Below, one piece after another: positions 2,389 to 63,187 of a DNA stretch of 64,000 nt. Below the pieces are notes generated by a model. That model was not told the origin of the DNA and did not search any database. It worked only from the letters and a program-made list of their open reading frames with translations. Position 1 is the stretch's first letter, and every line of letters starts with the position of its first letter. The DNA comes from Betaproteobacteria bacterium (GTDB lineage Bacteria > Pseudomonadota > Gammaproteobacteria > Burkholderiales > Rhodocyclaceae). The stretch spans positions 124,001-188,000 of the forward strand of contig WQZF01000001.1 in NCBI GenBank assembly GCA_009780885.1, read 5' to 3'. A program made the translations under genes and the position numbers.

Positions 2389-3480
2389 ATGGCGATCAGC
2401 GTTGAACAGATTCAGGCCGCCCTGAAGAAGCTGCCGGACCCGAACACCGGCAAGGATTTCGTCAGCACCAGGGCGGCGAAGAACATCAAGCTCGACGGCG
2501 GCGACATCGCGCTCGACATTGAACTCGGCTATCCGGCGAAAACCCAGATCGACGCGCTGCGCAAGAAAGTGATCGAAGCCCTGCGCGCGCTGCCCGGCGC
2601 CGGCAACGTCTCGGTCAACGTCTACAGCAAAATCGTCTCCCATGCCGTGCAGCGTGGGCTGAAGCCGCTGCCAGGGGTGAAGAACATCATCGCCGTCGCT
2701 TCCGGAAAGGGCGGCGTCGGAAAAAGCACGACCGCCGTCAACCTGGCGCTGGCGCTGGCGCAGGAAGGCGCAGTCGTCGGAATGCTCGACGCCGACATCT
2801 ACGGCCCCTCGCAGCCGCAACTGCTCGGGCTTTCGGGCGAACAGCCGGAATCGAAGGACGGCAAGACCATCGAGCCGCTCATCGCCTACGATGTGCAGAC
2901 GATGTCGATCGGTTTCCTGGTCGAAGCCGACACGCCGATGGTCTGGCGCGGCCCGATGGTGACGCAGGCGCTGGAGCAACTGCTGCGCGACACGCAATGG
3001 CGCGATGTCGACTACCTGATCGTCGACATGCCGCCGGGCACCGGCGACACCCAACTGACCCTGGCGCAGAAAGTCCCCGTGGCCGGCGCGGTGATCGTCA
3101 CCACCCCGCAGGACATCGCATTGATCGACGCGAAAAAGGGACTCAAGATGTTCGAGAAGGTTGGCATCCCGATCCTCGGCGTGATTGAAAACATGAGCAT
3201 TCATATTTGCAGCCAGTGCGGTCACGAGGAAGCGATTTTCGGCGCTGGCGGCGGCCAGAAGATGTGCGCCGACTACGAAACCGAATTCCTCGGCGCGCTG
3301 CCGCTCGAACTGGCGATCCGCGAACAGGCCGACATCGGCAGGCCCACCGTCGTCGGAGCGCCCGATTCGCGCACGGCGGAACTCTACCGCGACATCGCCC
3401 GCCGCATCGCGGTCAAGATCGGCGAGCAGGCCAGGGACATGACGAGCAAGTTTCCGTCGATCGTCGTCAGGAACGACTGA
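2389..3480 (+). CDS. apbC: Mrp/NBP35-type iron-sulfur cluster carrier ATPase
   Basis: A 363-residue P-loop NTPase that carries [4Fe-4S] clusters to apo-proteins. The N-terminal MIP18/DUF59 domain covers about residues 1-90. The deviant Walker [10 protein letters not shown] follows at about 106-114, then [10 protein letters not shown] and DMPPGTGD switch motifs. The cluster-binding CSQC pair is near residues 274-277. The start ATG at 2389 follows AAAAAGGAATTCC. It diverges from metG and lies 28 bp before dcd, so the two may be co-transcribed. Length and motifs are normal for the family. Confidence 0.96.
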
Positions 3481-22430: not shown

Positions 22431-22452
22431 GCCTTGCGTGTAGATTTTGTCT

Positions 22453-22467
22453 GAAGTTCGGAACTTC
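22453..22467. promoter_or_regulatory. 15-bp perfect palindrome GAAGTTC-G-GAACTTC
   Basis: A 7-1-7 inverted repeat 52 bp before the response-regulator start, in the divergent dsbB/rstA-like intergenic region. Its size and symmetry suit a dimeric regulator, possibly the RstA-like protein itself (inference). Confidence 0.5.
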
Positions 22468-22518
22468 CCTGTTACGGAATATGTCGGAATTCTTTTTCAC
22501 CCTTTTGATCATAACGGA

Positions 22519-23220
22519 ATGAATACTCACATCCTGCTTGTCGAAGACGACGAAAAACTGGCTGCGCTGACGGCTGAATATCTGCGCAAAAACGACTTTG
22601 AAGTCGCCATCGAGCATCGGGGCGACACTGCCGAGGCGCGTATTCTCAGCGAACGTCCGGCGCTGGTCGTACTCGATATCATGCTTCCTGGAAAGGACGG
22701 TTTCGAGATTTGCCGCAGTGTGCGTCCCAATTACTCCGGCGTGATCCTGATGCTGACTGCGCGCGACGAGGACTTCGATCAGATTCTCGGTCTTGAGCTG
22801 GGCGCCGACGATTACATCGCCAAGCCGGTGCAGCCGCGCGTGCTGCTGGCGCGCATTCGCGCCCTTCTGCGCCGCTCGCAGGCATCGCCGCCGGATAATG
22901 AAAATGACGAGATCATTTCGTTTGGGAATTTCCGGATCAGCCAATATACGCGCTCTGCGCATCTGGGCACGACGGAAATCGAACTGACCACTGCCGAATT
23001 CGATCTCCTCTGGCTGCTGGCGCAGCGTGCCGGAACCACGCTCTCCCGCGACGAGCTGCTGCATGAATTGCGCGGCATCGGCTTCGACGGCCTGGACCGT
23101 TCGATCGACGCCCGTATTTCGCGGCTGCGCAAGAAACTCGGCGACGATCCGGACAATCCAACGCGGATCAAGACGGTGCGCGGCAAGGGATATCTTTTCT
23201 CCAGGCATGACTGGCAGTAA
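22519..23220 (+). CDS. rstA: OmpR-family response regulator, RstA-like
   Basis: 233 residues. Receiver domain 1-120 with acidic pair D10-D11, phospho-acceptor D53 (VVLDIMLPGKDG) and K at ADDYIAKP. A winged-helix output domain follows (ELTTAEFDLLWLLAQRAG ... RSIDARISRLRKKLGDD ... RTVRGKGYL type). GKDGFEICRSVR and LGLELGADDYIAKP resemble E. coli RstA closely. Start at ATG 22519. Its stop overlaps the start of the sensor kinase by 14 bp. Signal unknown. Confidence 0.9.
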   Translation: MNTHILLVEDDEKLAALTAEYLRKNDFEVAIEHRGDTAEARILSERPALVVLDIMLPGKDGFEICRSVRPNYSGVILMLTARDEDFDQILGLELGADDYIAKPVQPRVLLARIRALLRRSQASPPDNENDEIISFGNFRISQYTRSAHLGTTEIELTTAEFDLLWLLAQRAGTTLSRDELLHELRGIGFDGLDRSIDARISRLRKKLGDDPDNPTRIKTVRGKGYLFSRHDWQ

Positions 23221-24634
23221 GGCCAGCACTTCCGGCAGCGGCGCCGCGACTGCCGCGCAACCCGTTGCCGCCGGGCCCGCCAGGAAAGGATTCGCGCTTC
23301 CTGCCGGGCCCTACCGCTTTGTGCGGATGTTCTTCAACTTCTACATCCTGGCCGCATGCGCTTTCGTCGGCATCGCGCTCATGGCCGACTTCATCGTCGC
23401 CAGAGGTCTGAAGGAAGTCACCGAAGACTATATCCGCCGCTCGATGTCCGGCACCGTTTTCCTGATCGAGGAAGATATCTTCAGTACTCCTCGCAGCAAG
23501 TGGCAGCAGACCATCGAGAGGATGAACGCCCAATTTGTCTATCCCCTGGCGATCGTCGAACGCTCCAGCCTCAGCCTGCCGCCGAAACAGGAAGTCCGGC
23601 TCGATTCCGGCCTGCTGGCCAGCGACGCAAGCGGCGATATCGTCTATAGCCGGCTGCGCAACACTTCGCAAGTGATTGTGCTTGGCCCTCTCTCCTCCGA
23701 GCGCAATCCGAAAAACCCGCAGCACGGCGTTCCGCTCGAATTGCGGATTCAACTCCTGGCCTGGGGGCTCAACGCGCTGGTTCTTGGCGTGGCGGTCTGG
23801 TTCTGGGCGCGTCCGATCTGGCGCGATATCGAAACCCTGCGCCGGACGGCGCGTTCGATTGCCGAAGGAAATTTTGGAGCGCGCGCGCCCAGCATACATA
23901 CCCCTGCCTTTGGACTCTTGACCTCCACCCTGAACGGCATGGCGGATCAGATACAGCGGCTTCTGACGACGCAGAAGGAAATGTCCAACGCGATTTCGCA
24001 CGAATTGCGCACGCCGATTGCGCGTATCCGCTTTGCGCTGGAGATGTTGACCGGAACCGACAGCATCGAGGAACGCCAGCGCTTGTGGCGCATGATGGAA
24101 AGCGACCTCGATGAACTCGACCAATTGATCGATACCAGCCTCACCTATGCCCGTTTCGAGCGCGAACAGCAGGAATTGCACCGTACCGGCATTCACTTCG
24201 TCTCCTGGCTGGAAAAGGAAGTCAACGCCCTGCGCTTTCTCGGACGCGAACTGAAAATCGAAGTCGACTGTTCGGCCATTGATCCCGGCCTTGAGCTCAA
24301 TGTCATCCTGCGGATGCTCAATTACGCGCTTCACAATCTCCTGCGCAACGCCATCAAATATGCCAGAACCGAAATCCTGGTCACCGCCCTGGTCGAGGAT
24401 GGGAAAGTCGTGATCCACATCGACGACGATGGCATCGGTATTCCGGAAGAGGCGCGCGAACACATCTTTACCGCCTTCGTCCGCCTCGACCGTTCCCGCG
24501 ATCGTGCGACCGGGGGCTATGGTCTCGGCCTGACGATTACCCGGCGCGCGATGGAACTGCACGGCGGCAGCGCCGCCGCGCACGACTCCCCGCTCGGCGG
24601 CGCGCGCTTCACGCTCGCCTGGCCGCTGGACTGA
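23207..24634 (+). CDS. rstB: Sensor histidine kinase, RstB-like
   Basis: 475 residues from ATG 23207, overlapping the response-regulator stop, so the pair is translationally coupled. Domains: Ser/Ala-rich cytoplasmic head, TM1 about 45-68, periplasmic sensor about 70-180, TM2 about 182-202, HAMP, HisKA with phosphorylated H265 (AISHELRTPIARI), HATPase with N box NLLRNAIKYA, G1 DDDGIGIPEE and G2 GGYGLGLTI. It should phosphorylate the RstA-like regulator. The periplasmic ligand is not predictable. Confidence 0.92.
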   Translation: MTGSKASTSGSGAATAAQPVAAGPARKGFALPAGPYRFVRMFFNFYILAACAFVGIALMADFIVARGLKEVTEDYIRRSMSGTVFLIEEDIFSTPRSKWQQTIERMNAQFVYPLAIVERSSLSLPPKQEVRLDSGLLASDASGDIVYSRLRNTSQVIVLGPLSSERNPKNPQHGVPLELRIQLLAWGLNALVLGVAVWFWARPIWRDIETLRRTARSIAEGNFGARAPSIHTPAFGLLTSTLNGMADQIQRLLTTQKEMSNAISHELRTPIARIRFALEMLTGTDSIEERQRLWRMMESDLDELDQLIDTSLTYARFEREQQELHRTGIHFVSWLEKEVNALRFLGRELKIEVDCSAIDPGLELNVILRMLNYALHNLLRNAIKYARTEILVTALVEDGKVVIHIDDDGIGIPEEAREHIFTAFVRLDRSRDRATGGYGLGLTITRRAMELHGGSAAAHDSPLGGARFTLAWPLD

Positions 24635-24664
24635 TCGGGTCCCCGTTTTTCCGAAGGCAGTCCC

Positions 24665-26725
24665 ATTTCTTCTCCTGTTTACCCTTCTCCAGGCGCTGCG
24701 CCATCCTCCGGTGCGGTCGTCCGCGTTGCGCTTGGCGTGCCGCTCCCGCGCCTCTTCGACTATCTGGCGCCGCAAGCCGGCCCCGGGGATGTCGGACGCC
24801 TTGTGCACGTGCCCTTCGGCAGCGGCTTGCGCGTGGGAATCCTCCTCGATGTCGGCGTCAAGAGCGAACTTCCCGAAGAACAACTCAAGCCGGTACAGGA
24901 AATCCTCACCGATCTTCCGCCGCTGCCTCCGGAGTGGATGCGCTTGTGCGAATTCTGTTCCGGGTATTACCACGCCCCGCTCGGAGAAGTCATGCTCGCT
25001 GCGCTGCCGGCGGGGGTCAAGCGTGCCGTGCCCACGAAAAGGCGGCAGATCAAGGCGCGCGCCCGCCGCGATTCTGTCGCGGAATCGCTGCCGGAACTCA
25101 CCGGGGAACAGGCGGCGGCGCTGGACTCGATCCGCGCGGCAGGGCCAGGCTTCCATCCCTTCCTGCTGTTCGGCGTCACCGGCAGCGGCAAAACCGAAAT
25201 CTACCTGCGCCTGATCGCCGACGCGCTGGAAGCGGGCGGGCAAGTACTGCTCCTGACGCCGGAAATCAACCTCACCCCGCAGATGGAAGCGCGTCTCGCG
25301 GCGCGTTTTCCGGAAACGCCGCCGGTCAGCCTGCACAGCGAACTTTCCGAAGCCATGCGCGCGCGCCATTGGCGTGCCGCGTTTACGGGCGAGGCGCGGA
25401 TCGTGCTCGGCACGCGGCTCTCTGTCTTCACGCCGATGCCCGATCTGGCGCTGATCATCATCGACGAGGAGCACGATCCTTCCCTCAAGCAGCAGGACGG
25501 CATCCGTTATTCGGCGCGCGACCTCGCCGTCTTTCGCGCCCGTCAGCGCGGGATTCCGATCGTTCTCGGTTCGGCAACGCCCTCGCTGGAAAGCTGGGGC
25601 AACGCGCACGGAAAACGCGCATCGGCCCGCAGCACAAGCCGCTACCGGCTGCTCACGCTGAACATGCGCGCCGCCGGCAATGCGCGCCTGCCCACGGTGC
25701 GCTGCCTCGATACCCGGCGCGAGACGATGCGCGAAGGCTTGTCCGCCGTCCTGCTCGATGCCCTGGCCGAACGCCTTGCGCGCGGCGAGCAGAGCCTTGT
25801 CTTCCTCAACCGGCGCGGATTCGCCCCGGTGCTGGCCTGTCCGGCGTGCGGCTGGATTTCGCGCTGCAATCGTTGCGCCGCCAACCTCGTCCTGCATCTG
25901 GCCGACCGCCGCCTGCGCTGCCACCATTGCGGCTCCGAGGCGCGGGTGCCGCGCGCCTGCCCGGGCTGCGGCAACCTCGACCTGCAACCCTTCGGGCGCG
26001 GCACACAACGCCTTGAAGCCTTTCTCGCCGAATGCTTCCCGCAAGCGCGCCTGCTGCGCGTCGACCGCGACGCGGCCAGAAGCCGCAAGCAGTGGGAGGC
26101 CATGCTCGCGCAAATTCACGGCGGAGAAGCCGATATCCTGATCGGCACCCAGATGCTCGCCAAGGGGCACGATTTCCCGCGCCTGACGCTGGTGGGGGCC
26201 GTCGGCGCCGATGCGGCGCTCTTTTCCGCAGACTGGCGCGCGCCGGAACGCCTCTTCGCGCTGTTGATGCAGGTGGCCGGACGCGCCGGACGCGCCGATC
26301 TCCCGGGCGAAGTGCTGATCCAGACGCAATACCCGGAGCATCCTCTCTACACGGCGCTGACCGCGCACGATTACCCCTCCTTCGCCTTCGCGCAGCTTGC
26401 CGAGCGCAAGGGCGCCGGTTTTCCTCCCTACAGCCATCAGGCCATGTTGCGCGCCGAAGCGCCGGAAATGGCGCAGTCCATCGCCTTTCTCGCCAGCGCG
26501 CGCGCCGGGGCGCGAAGCTCGGAGCATCCCGATGTTGCGCTCTACGATCCGGTGACGATGCGCCTCTCCCGCCGCGCCGACCGGGAACGGGCGCAGTTGC
26601 TGGTCGAATCCTTCTCGCGCCCGGCGCTTCAGGGCTTCCTGAAGGAATGGATGGCGACGCTGAGGCAAATCAAAATCCCGGCCCGCCTGCGCTGGCACCT
26701 GGAAGTCGATCCCTTGGAATTTTGA
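24665..26725 (+). CDS. priA: Primosomal helicase PriA, probable ATT start
   Basis: Replication-restart 3'-5' helicase. The conserved first strand VVRVALGVPLPRLFDYLAP begins upstream of the first canonical start (GTG 24737), yet the frame between the kinase stop (24634) and that GTG holds no ATG, GTG, TTG or CTG. The best candidate is ATT 24665, with GAAGG 7 bp upstream; it gives 686 residues. Motifs: 3'BD domain, Walker A GVTGSGKTE, DEEH box, zinc-binding cysteines (CPACGWISRCNRC, CHHCG, CPGCG), QMLAKGHDFP and QVAGRAGR. The function call is firm; the start is inferred. Confidence 0.93.
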   Translation: MSSPVYPSPGAAPSSGAVVRVALGVPLPRLFDYLAPQAGPGDVGRLVHVPFGSGLRVGILLDVGVKSELPEEQLKPVQEILTDLPPLPPEWMRLCEFCSGYYHAPLGEVMLAALPAGVKRAVPTKRRQIKARARRDSVAESLPELTGEQAAALDSIRAAGPGFHPFLLFGVTGSGKTEIYLRLIADALEAGGQVLLLTPEINLTPQMEARLAARFPETPPVSLHSELSEAMRARHWRAAFTGEARIVLGTRLSVFTPMPDLALIIIDEEHDPSLKQQDGIRYSARDLAVFRARQRGIPIVLGSATPSLESWGNAHGKRASARSTSRYRLLTLNMRAAGNARLPTVRCLDTRRETMREGLSAVLLDALAERLARGEQSLVFLNRRGFAPVLACPACGWISRCNRCAANLVLHLADRRLRCHHCGSEARVPRACPGCGNLDLQPFGRGTQRLEAFLAECFPQARLLRVDRDAARSRKQWEAMLAQIHGGEADILIGTQMLAKGHDFPRLTLVGAVGADAALFSADWRAPERLFALLMQVAGRAGRADLPGEVLIQTQYPEHPLYTALTAHDYPSFAFAQLAERKGAGFPPYSHQAMLRAEAPEMAQSIAFLASARAGARSSEHPDVALYDPVTMRLSRRADRERAQLLVESFSRPALQGFLKEWMATLRQIKIPARLRWHLEVDPLEF

Positions 26726-26828: not shown

Positions 26829-26854
26829 GGATCCTGCGACTGCGCGCAGGATGA
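26829..26854. repeat. Family E short palindromic repeat, copy 1
   Basis: GGATCCTGCGACTGCGCGCA-GGATGA, a degenerate palindrome found again at 26987, 33241, 33410 and 37703. It feeds directly into the 16-bp tandem array. Confidence 0.65.
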
Positions 26855-26950
26855 CGGTCGAGCAAGATGATGGTCGCGCAAGATGACGGTCGAGCAGGAT
26901 GACGGTCGCGCAGGATGACGGTCGCGCAGGATGACGGTCGCGCAGGATGG
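26843..26950. repeat. 16-bp tandem repeat, about 6.7 units
   Basis: Six full units of CGCGCAGGATGACGGT and a partial seventh. Units 1, 5 and 6 are identical; units 2-4 differ by one to three bases (CGAGCAAGATGATGGT, CGCGCAAGATGACGGT, CGAGCAGGATGACGGT). It appears to have grown out of the family E repeat that overlaps its first unit. No protein is encoded. Confidence 0.9.
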
Positions 26951-28187: not shown

Positions 28188-29966
28188 TTACTCGCCCTTC
28201 CGGTCCAGCCGGATGTGCAGTTCGCGCAACTGCTTCGTGTCGACCATGGACGGGGCATCGGTCAGCAGGCACTGGGCGCGCTGGGTTTTCGGGAAGGCGA
28301 TGACATCGCGGATCGATTCGGCACCGGTCATCATCGTCACGATGCGATCCAGCCCGAAGGCCAGCCCGCCGTGCGGCGGAGCGCCGTAACGCAGCGCGTC
28401 GAGCAGGAAACCGAATTTCGCGCGCGCTTCTTCCTCGCCGATGGCGAGCGCCTCGAAAACCTGCTGCTGGATGTCGGCGCGGTGGATACGCACCGAGCCG
28501 CCGCCGATTTCCCATCCGTTCAGCGCCAGATCGTAGGCTTTCGCCAGACATTTGCCCGGATCGGTGGAGAGCAGTTCCAGATGCTCGTCCTTCGGGCTGG
28601 TAAAGGGATGGTGGCAGGCGGTCCAGCGTTTGGCCTCGGCGTCGTACTCAAACATCGGAAAATCGACGACCCATACCGGCGCCCAGGCTTCTCCGGTGAG
28701 GAAGCCCTTTTCGTGCCCGATTTTGGCGCGCAACGCGCCGAGCGCGTCGGCGACGATCTTGTTCTTGTCCGCGCCGAAGAAAATCAGATCGCCGTTCTGC
28801 GCGCCGGTGCGCTCGACGATGGCCTTCAGCGCCGCCTCGTGCAGATTCTTGACGATCGGCGATTGCAGGCCGGTTTCGTTGAGTTGGGAAACATCGTTGA
28901 CCTTGATGTAGGCCAGACCCTTCGCGCCGTAGATGCCGACGAACTGGGTGTAAGCGTCGATCTCGCCGCGCGTGAGCGCGCCGCCGTTGGGGATGCGCAG
29001 GGCCGCGACACGTCCGTCGGCGGCGTTGGCGACGCCGCTGAACACCTTGAACGCGACATCCTTCACCGCGTCGGTCACATCGGTGAGTTCGAGCGTGACG
29101 CGCAGATCCGGCTTGTCGGATCCGTAGCGCCGCATCGCCTCGGCGAAGGAGAGGCGCGGGAAGGGATTCGGCAGATCGACACCGATGCTTTCCTTGAAGA
29201 CATAACGGATCAGTTCCTCGATCAGCGCGGTGATTTCCGCCTCGTTCATGAACGAGGTTTCGATGTCGACCTGGGTGAATTCGGGCTGGCGGTCGGCGCG
29301 CAAATCCTCGTCACGGAAGCATTTGACGATCTGGTAATAACGGTCGAAGCCCGCGACCATCAAAAGCTGCTTGAAGAGCTGCGGCGACTGCGGCAGCGCG
29401 AAGAAAGCGCCGGGATGCACGCGGGAAGGCACCAGATAGTCGCGCGCGCCTTCCGGGGTGCTCTTGGTGAGCATCGGCGTTTCGATATCGAGAAAGCCGT
29501 GCTCGTCGAGAAAGCGGCGGAAGGCCCGCGCCACCTTGTAGCGCAGGATCATGTTGTGCTGCATCTGCGGGCGGCGCAGGTCGATGACGCGATGCGTCAG
29601 GCGCACCGTTTCGGAGAGGTTCTGGTCTTCAAGCTGGAAGGGCGGCGTTTGCGCGGCGTTGAGCACTTCGATTTCGCGGCACAAGACTTCGATTTCGCCG
29701 GAAGGAAGGTTGGGATTCGCCGTGCCTTCGGGACGCGCGCGCACCTTGCCGGTGATCCGCAGGCAGAATTCGTTGCGCACCGATTCGGCGAGCGCGAACA
29801 TTTGCGGAATGTCCGGATCGCAGACGATTTGCGCCATGCCGTCGCGGTCGCGCAGGTCGATGAAAATCACTCCGCCGTGGTCGCGCCGCCGGTGCGCCCA
29901 GCCGCAGAGGGAAATTTCCTGGCCGATGTGTTGGGAATTGAGCTGACCGCAATAATGAGTACGCAT
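28188..29966 (-). CDS. aspS: Aspartyl-tRNA synthetase
   Basis: 592 residues, bacterial-type class II enzyme. Start ATG 29966 ([16 protein letters not shown]), matching the usual N-terminus, although the frame stays open upstream. The OB-fold anticodon domain comes first, then motif 2 ([18 protein letters not shown]), the bacterial GAD insertion around residues 290-420, and motif 3 ([15 protein letters not shown]). It ends RLDRKGE. Third gene of the fmdB-DUF502-aspS operon, 2 bp after the DUF502 stop. Confidence 0.97.
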
Positions 29967-29968
29967 GA

Positions 29969-30616
29969 TTATTCGTCTGGAAAAAGGTTCCGGGTTTTGG
30001 AATGACGCTCCGGGGGCGTAACGACCCCCATGGAGATGATGTATTTCAGGGCTTCGTCGACGCTGATGTCGAGCTCGATCGCTTCGCTTTTGGGCAACAT
30101 CAGGAAAAATCCGGAAGTCGGGTTCGGCGTGGTCGGCACGAAGACGCTGATATGTTCTTCCGGCAGATGCGCGGCGACGGATTCTCCGGGTTTGCCCGTC
30201 AGGAACGCGATCGTCCAGAGTCCCTGGCGCGGATACTGCACCAGCAGCGCCTTGCGGAAGGCTTGCCCGTTCTGCGCGAACAGCGTATCGGAAACCTGCT
30301 TGACGCTGTTGTAAATCGAATTGACGACCGGAATCCGCGCCAGAAGGCGCTCCCACCAGATCACGAGCCGTTGCCCGAGAATATTGGCGCCGAGCACTCC
30401 GGTCACGAACAGCATCAACAGCGTCAGCACCGTGCCGACGCCCGGAATATCGAATCCGAAGAGATTCTTCGGATGAATCGCCTCCGGCAGCAGGCGCAGG
30501 GATTGATCCATCAGGCCGACCACCAGCGACAACACCCAGATGGTGATGACCAGCGGAACCCAGATCAGAAGCCCGGTAACGAAGTAGCGACGCATTGCGA
30601 TGGCTGGAGCGCCCAT
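29969..30616 (-). CDS. DUF502 membrane protein
   Basis: 215 residues; the ATG at 30616 directly abuts the fmdB stop. Two membrane helices ([20 protein letters not shown] and [20 protein letters not shown]) precede a soluble domain with the DUF502 signatures [25 protein letters not shown] and [15 protein letters not shown]. Function unknown; the fmdB/DUF502/aspS arrangement is conserved in betaproteobacteria. Confidence 0.9.
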
Positions 30617-30877
30617 TCAGCAGCACGAGCAGGCGCCGTGCCCGCCCTGGCAGGGCGGCGCGGAAGCGGCCTCGCCCGTTGGCGCAGGCGAGCCGCCGCC
30701 CTTGAAATCGGTCGCGTACCAGCCTTTTCCCTTCAACTGGAATCCCGCCGCCGAAACCTTCTTTATATAGGTTTCTGCATGGCAATTCGGGCAGGTGCTC
30801 AGAAGGGGATCGCTCAGTTTTTGCAGGTGTTCCCGCTCGAATCCGCAGGAAGTGCAGCGATATTCATAAATTGGCAT
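30617..30877 (-). CDS. FmdB-family zinc-ribbon regulatory protein
   Basis: 86 residues. Starts [20 protein letters not shown], with CxxC pairs at CTSC and CPNC forming the zinc ribbon typical of the FmdB/CxxC_CXXC_SSSS family. The tail is Gly/Ser/Ala-rich and ends in a cysteine/histidine cluster ([11 protein letters not shown]). First gene of the operon with DUF502 and aspS. Precise role unknown. Confidence 0.92.

Positions 30878-61933: not shown

Positions 61934-61937
<4 letters not shown>
58905..61937 (-). CDS. hsdR: Type I restriction enzyme, R subunit (EcoR124-like)
   Basis: 1010 residues, the type IC length. N-terminal PD-ExK nuclease (VTILVNGLPLVHVELKRRGV, with QxxxY motif NQIKRY). Helicase motifs: Walker A TTGSGKTLTS, DEAD-like FDECHRSQFGE, FTGTPIF, and motif VI-like QAFSRTNRI. 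Together with HsdM and HsdS it would translocate and cut unmodified DNA. The start ATG overlaps the hsdS stop (ATGA). It ends AFFEKYLGLV. All catalytic motifs look intact. Confidence 0.95.

Positions 61938-63176
<1,239 letters not shown>

Positions 63177-63187
<11 letters not shown>

Follow-up and report, generated by a model that had tools for sequence, protein, structure and literature searches.

A priA gene with no canonical start codon before its first conserved strand, and ATT as its candidate start

A bacterium of the Rhodocyclaceae (assembly GCA_009780885.1) carries an intact priA gene that has lost its normal 5' end. In the 64,000-nucleotide stretch of contig WQZF01000001.1 that we analysed (the window), the first canonical start in the priA frame lies downstream of the codons for the conserved first strand of the protein, and priA is parted from hemE, its upstream neighbour in relatives. 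Provided that the assembly is correct here, initiation at an ATT at 24665 is the likeliest of the readings considered. From the sequence we would put the probability of this start at about 0.4; this figure, like the weights that we give to the other readings, is a judgement and not a computed posterior.

Results

The priA frame and its 5' end

The priA product scores 930 bits against NCBIfam NF004067, above the cut-off of 763, and comprises the Pfam domains PF17764 (PriA_3primeBD), PF00270 (DEAD), PF18319 (Zn_ribbon_PriA), PF00271 (Helicase_C) and PF18074 (PriA_C); the defining features of a PriA protein (3'BD domain, DEAD helicase core, Cys-rich zinc region and C-terminal domain) are all present. 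The gene and its surroundings are laid out as follows, in window coordinates.

22447..23220, + strand: RstA-like response regulator; a TTG start at 22447 is listed, ATG 22519 is the start by codon score
23324..24634, + strand: RstB-like sensor histidine kinase; stop TGA 24632-24634, start uncertain
24635..24712, + strand: rstB-priA junction, in the priA frame, without NTG codons and non-coding-like; new relative to the ancestral hemE-priA spacer
24653..24657, + strand: GAAGG, of which AAGG is a 4-nt anti-Shine-Dalgarno (anti-SD) match; 7 nt before ATT
24665..24667, + strand: ATT candidate start, the sole in-frame ATN codon; product (M)SSPVYPSPGAAPSSGAVVRVALG
24665..26725, + strand: priA, replication-restart helicase (primosomal protein N'), by NF004067 and Pfam; 686 codons if started at ATT
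24710..24712, + strand: GGT, homologous in position to the PriA start codon of relatives (54/63)
24711..24713, + strand: GTG, off the priA frame by one base, where the ancestral start lay; a GTG start stands there in relatives L112, L113, L116 and L121
24716..24736, + strand: codons of PriA strand 1 (VVRVALG), conserved
24737..24739, + strand: GTG, first in-frame canonical start, without SD; would delete strand 1

The frame is open from 24635, directly after the kinase stop, to the priA stop (TGA 26723-26725). Reading it codon by codon from the kinase TGA confirmed what a sequence-only reading of this DNA had reported: there is no ATG, GTG, TTG or CTG before GTG 24737, ATT 24665 is preceded seven bases upstream by GAAGG (its anti-SD match being AAGG alone), and the priA frame continues that of the kinase. 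The same reading had placed PriA's first strand upstream of GTG 24737, and this also holds. The VVRVALGVPLPRLFDYLAP segment is genuine PriA by the Pfam profile and by alignment with K. pneumoniae PriA, whose Met1 aligns with GGT 24710; position 1 of the PriA_3primeBD profile is Arg 24722; and 24716-24736 differs from relative L120 by synonymous changes only. The complete set of PriA domains, together with the profile start at Arg 24722, indicates that the priA frame is right and that a start at GTG 24737 would remove strand 1. Because this strand is conserved, translation should begin upstream of it.

Starts of priA in relatives

PriA is present in nearly all of the 399 family genomes, the best being ~71% identical. 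We scored the start in relatives as the nearest canonical codon at least 4 codons upstream of the PriA motif, and in all 63 family relatives read at the 5' end it was canonical (52 ATG, 8 GTG, 3 TTG); a comparison with relatives, which had been put forward as a check on the ATT, therefore reveals no conserved ATT. In 54 of the 63, the start falls at one homologous place (M-x-[VIL]-[VAL]-R), which here corresponds to GGT 24710. The seven genomes of the neighbouring genus g78, whose PriA identity to this one is among the highest, use GTG (4), TTG (1) and ATG (2), and each of its four GTG starts has an SD of at most 3 nt. In the present genome the letters around the out-of-frame GTG 24711 are assembled as GTGCGGTCGTC, with no extra base, and GTG CG GTC GTC CGC here aligns with GTG ACC ATC GTC CGC in L113 when a gap is placed there. 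Some relatives (L120, with a GTG preceded by GGGAGG, and L115, L119 and L123) carry N-terminal extensions, from which it follows that a tail on PriA is tolerated. The priA frame of L026 contains an ATG (MRIVRVALP).

A separate observation concerns L069 (Proteobacteria bacterium casp15-mb.134, another MAG), in which priA (~2945-3001) has no ATG, GTG or TTG from an upstream in-frame TAG to strand 1, and the stretch before strand 1 offers only ATA/ATT codons as candidates.

Loss of the hemE linkage

We inspected the DNA upstream of priA in 18 relatives, and in all 18 hemE is the immediate upstream neighbour. Here the two genes lie 66 kb apart on the same contig, hemE on the minus strand (C1:81948-82967) and priA on the plus strand (C1:148665). 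After hemE the ancestral spacer with TTATCCACA persists, and in it the element reads AAAATTCACAAAGTTATCCACAG; in relatives the element (AATCCACAAAGTTATCCACAG) precedes the PriA motif by ~95-200 nt. Beyond it, downstream of hemE, stand pilC/pilD-like genes in the opposite direction (identified by eye). In place of hemE, priA follows a two-component pair that falls below the curated NCBIfam cut-offs (NF007977 RstA, E 1.1e-84; NF007898 RstB, E 7.2e-93), the kinase having HisKA and HATPase_c domains in Pfam. In nine other family genomes rstB orthologues lie elsewhere, and priA follows none of them; no junction-like sequence was seen by eye downstream of rstB in these nine, and we rejected such DNA as the source of the junction on that lack of similarity.

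We regard the loss of hemE linkage as a more solid new fact than the ATT start. A rearrangement probably removed the native leader of priA, and perhaps the start itself; the arrangement is consistent with an inversion of ~66 kb that had a breakpoint within the spacer between hemE and priA, and other rearrangements are possible. No second copy of the junction, such as one at the other breakpoint near hemE, was found in the genome, the best other hits being chance matches of 14-30 nt.

The TTATCCACA-bearing element (AATCCACAAAGTTATCCACAG..TGTG) resembles paired DnaA boxes and is a conserved feature of the DNA before priA throughout the family. priA here is without it, and the copy of this genome (L139) remains by hemE, at C1 ~81.6-81.9 kb.

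Coding character of the junction

With a codon model built from the window's own genes and applied to 15-codon segments, the 15 codons after ATT (24668-24712) score -13.3, lower than the first 15 codons of any of the 35 ATG-starting window genes (minimum -4.0, mean 3.4) and lower than each of 990 internal segments of window genes; intergenic segments average -4.5. GC content by codon position in these codons is 0.60/0.87/0.33, vs 0.64/0.44/0.77 in genes, and GC3 in the extensions of relatives is 0.60-1.0 (L120, L115, L119, L123, L031) or 0.44 (L024). The low codon score and the GC3 of 0.33 make the stretch that would be translated from ATT look like intergenic DNA. The sliding codon score turns positive as it reaches 24707-24713, placing the coding signal from ~24713. 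Since a tail recruited only recently would look non-coding too, composition weakens the ATT start without excluding it.

The other frames of the junction reach best coding scores of 1.1 and 1.4, which are not convincing; RNA structure is unexceptional (z -0.87); no promoter was found; and there is one weak terminator-like hairpin (24628-24642; 0.3 expected).

Chance levels and assembly quality

We examined 22,068 stretches of 28 codons from the window that are free of NTG and stop codons; ATT, ATC or ATA occurs in 55% of them, and in 13% it is accompanied by an SD match of 4 nt or more. ATT 24665 and its SD are thus only mildly unusual; the missing canonical start is unusual. By chance, an NTG falls within one base of a specified place in 7% of cases, and it does so in 0 of 49 other called window genes. 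These two coincidences (ATT with its SD, and GTG 24711) are about equally strong, and each speaks for a different reading.

Completeness of the assembly is 99.17% and contamination 0.1%. A scan of twenty window genes against NCBIfam (16 with a family match at the thresholds used) revealed no frameshift, and on this ground we rejected a frameshift-prone assembly; the scan bounds the indel rate at ~1e-4 per base, which is too loose to exclude a single missing base.

Weighing the candidate starts

In favour of ATT, it is the sole cognate-like start in the frame, and infC of this genome also appears to have a non-canonical start (ATC). Against it stand the non-coding-like codons that follow, the 4-nt SD, the 13% chance level and its absence from all 63 relatives. 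A tentative but serious competitor, to which we give less weight, is that the real start is GTG 24711, homologous to the GTG of g78, and that one base is missing from the assembled second codon (GTG CG- GTC GTC CGC), either because of an error in sequencing or assembly or because a real frameshift arose recently; an untranslated leader would then occupy 24635-24710. This would put the start where 54 of the 63 relatives have theirs, with the same codon and similarly weak SDs as in L112, L113, L116 and L121, and with the coding signal beginning at about that point and the required alignment gap right there. It needs, however, an error or mutation in a window in which 20 scanned genes show no frameshift, and we judge the prior of a single-base artefact or fresh frameshift here to be similar to or lower than that of a rare start; the 7% chance of an NTG so placed also tells against it. 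The anatomy of the proposed ATT start thus stands, and the proposal is weakened by the non-coding-like codons, by GTG 24711 and by an SD weaker than that of infC.

The remaining readings all carry less weight. GTG 24737 would be the choice of gene callers as the first canonical in-frame start, and its use would mean that this lineage makes a PriA of 662 residues without strand 1; we think this unlikely, because strand 1 follows the start in all relatives, VVRVALG is coding-like here as well as conserved, and initiation at this SD-less codon would truncate the beginning of the 3'BD domain. GTC starts are extremely rare. We are more sceptical still of some other non-canonical codon near the ancestral start, such as GTC 24719: the coding signal begins there, GGTG is suitably spaced 5 nt upstream and a GTC start is documented (PMC5472188), but strand 1 would be shortened. 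Read-through of the rstB TGA into a kinase-PriA fusion, for which the continuous frames would allow, had already been rated less likely than ATT in the sequence-only reading; we agree and hold it to be highly improbable, since the codons of 24635-24712 are non-coding-like and no recoding signal was identified. We know of no precedent for a membrane-tethered PriA.

Discussion

How priA might have come to depend on ATT can be sketched as follows. A rearrangement would have separated priA from both hemE and the ancestral spacer and brought it to lie behind rstAB; in the assembled sequence the ancestral start position is no longer an in-frame start. Initiation at ATT 24665 would then be guided by GAAGG, perhaps also by ribosomes that re-initiate 30 nt beyond the rstB stop, and would add a 17-residue Ser/Pro-rich tail. 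Its efficiency would be low, which may be tolerable for a low-abundance protein such as PriA. The absence of a canonical start, the conservation of strand 1 and the loss of hemE linkage are shown; the exact limits of the junction, like the inversion, are inferred. An ATT start predicts the N-terminal peptide SSPVYPSPGAAPSSGAVVR (Met removed before Ser). The sequence-only reading had further suggested that PriA level could be tied to initiation fidelity. That PriA output is set by IF3 initiation fidelity together with re-initiation behind RstAB, with AUU as the only start, strikes us as improbable, and IF3 control of priA is something that we purely infer.

Rare starts other than those of infC are of the order of at most 1 per thousand genes, going by PMC9410913, PMC13009471 and PMC5472188. 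infC, which encodes IF3 and is subject to IF3 feedback through its AUU/AUC start, resembles priA in that the candidate start is an ATN codon; unlike priA, it combines a documented rare start with a strong SD (AAGGAG, 8 nt upstream of the ATC in this genome), whereas the priA SD is weak and its tail non-coding-like and not conserved. E. coli pcnB, with an AUU start (Binns and Masters 2002, as cited in PMC9410913), is similar in having a proposed AUU start and a product that can be scarce, the priA start being predicted from sequence; pcnB of the present genome appears to start at ATG. In S. aureus, cvfC1 (AUU) and ccpN (AUA) have, like priA, ATN starts found in a genome; theirs are conserved, have extended SDs and were seen by Ribo-Ret (PMC13009471), whereas the ATT of priA comes from one genome and has a 4-nt SD. 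Streptomyces sigR is comparable in its non-canonical start, which is IF3-repressed and was missed by annotation; it differs in its codon (GTC, not ATT), and its start was shown by mutation and Western blot (PMC5472188), whereas that of priA is predicted.

If ATT is the true start, priA would be added to the very few bacterial genes translated from AUU, and the case would show one route to such starts: loss of the native leader, by rearrangement, from a gene whose product is required in small amounts only. If instead GTG 24711 is the start, the case would illustrate how, in a lone assembly, an apparent start anomaly can be due to a one-base artefact that masks a conserved GTG. In both cases automatic annotation will probably place the start at GTG 24737 and deprive PriA of a conserved strand.

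Other features of the window

Downstream of priA, an intergenic 16-bp tandem repeat (CGCGCAGGATGACGGT, 6.7 copies, 26843-26949) is followed by a partly inverted copy (ATCCTGCGCGGAGCGCAAG...), and may be a dispersed palindromic element. The aspS open frame (28188-30785, - strand) extends far upstream of the real start to give an 865-codon ORF, and it overlaps a neighbouring gene at 29969-30616 as a shadow frame, not as a fusion. A (TGTC)18 tetranucleotide array (62477-62548), read as DRQT repeats, lies inside an ORF on the - strand (61934-63187) that encodes HsdS, the specificity subunit of a type I restriction system (Pfam Methylase_S); as the number of repeats sets the frame of HsdS, this is a typical phase-variable arrangement.
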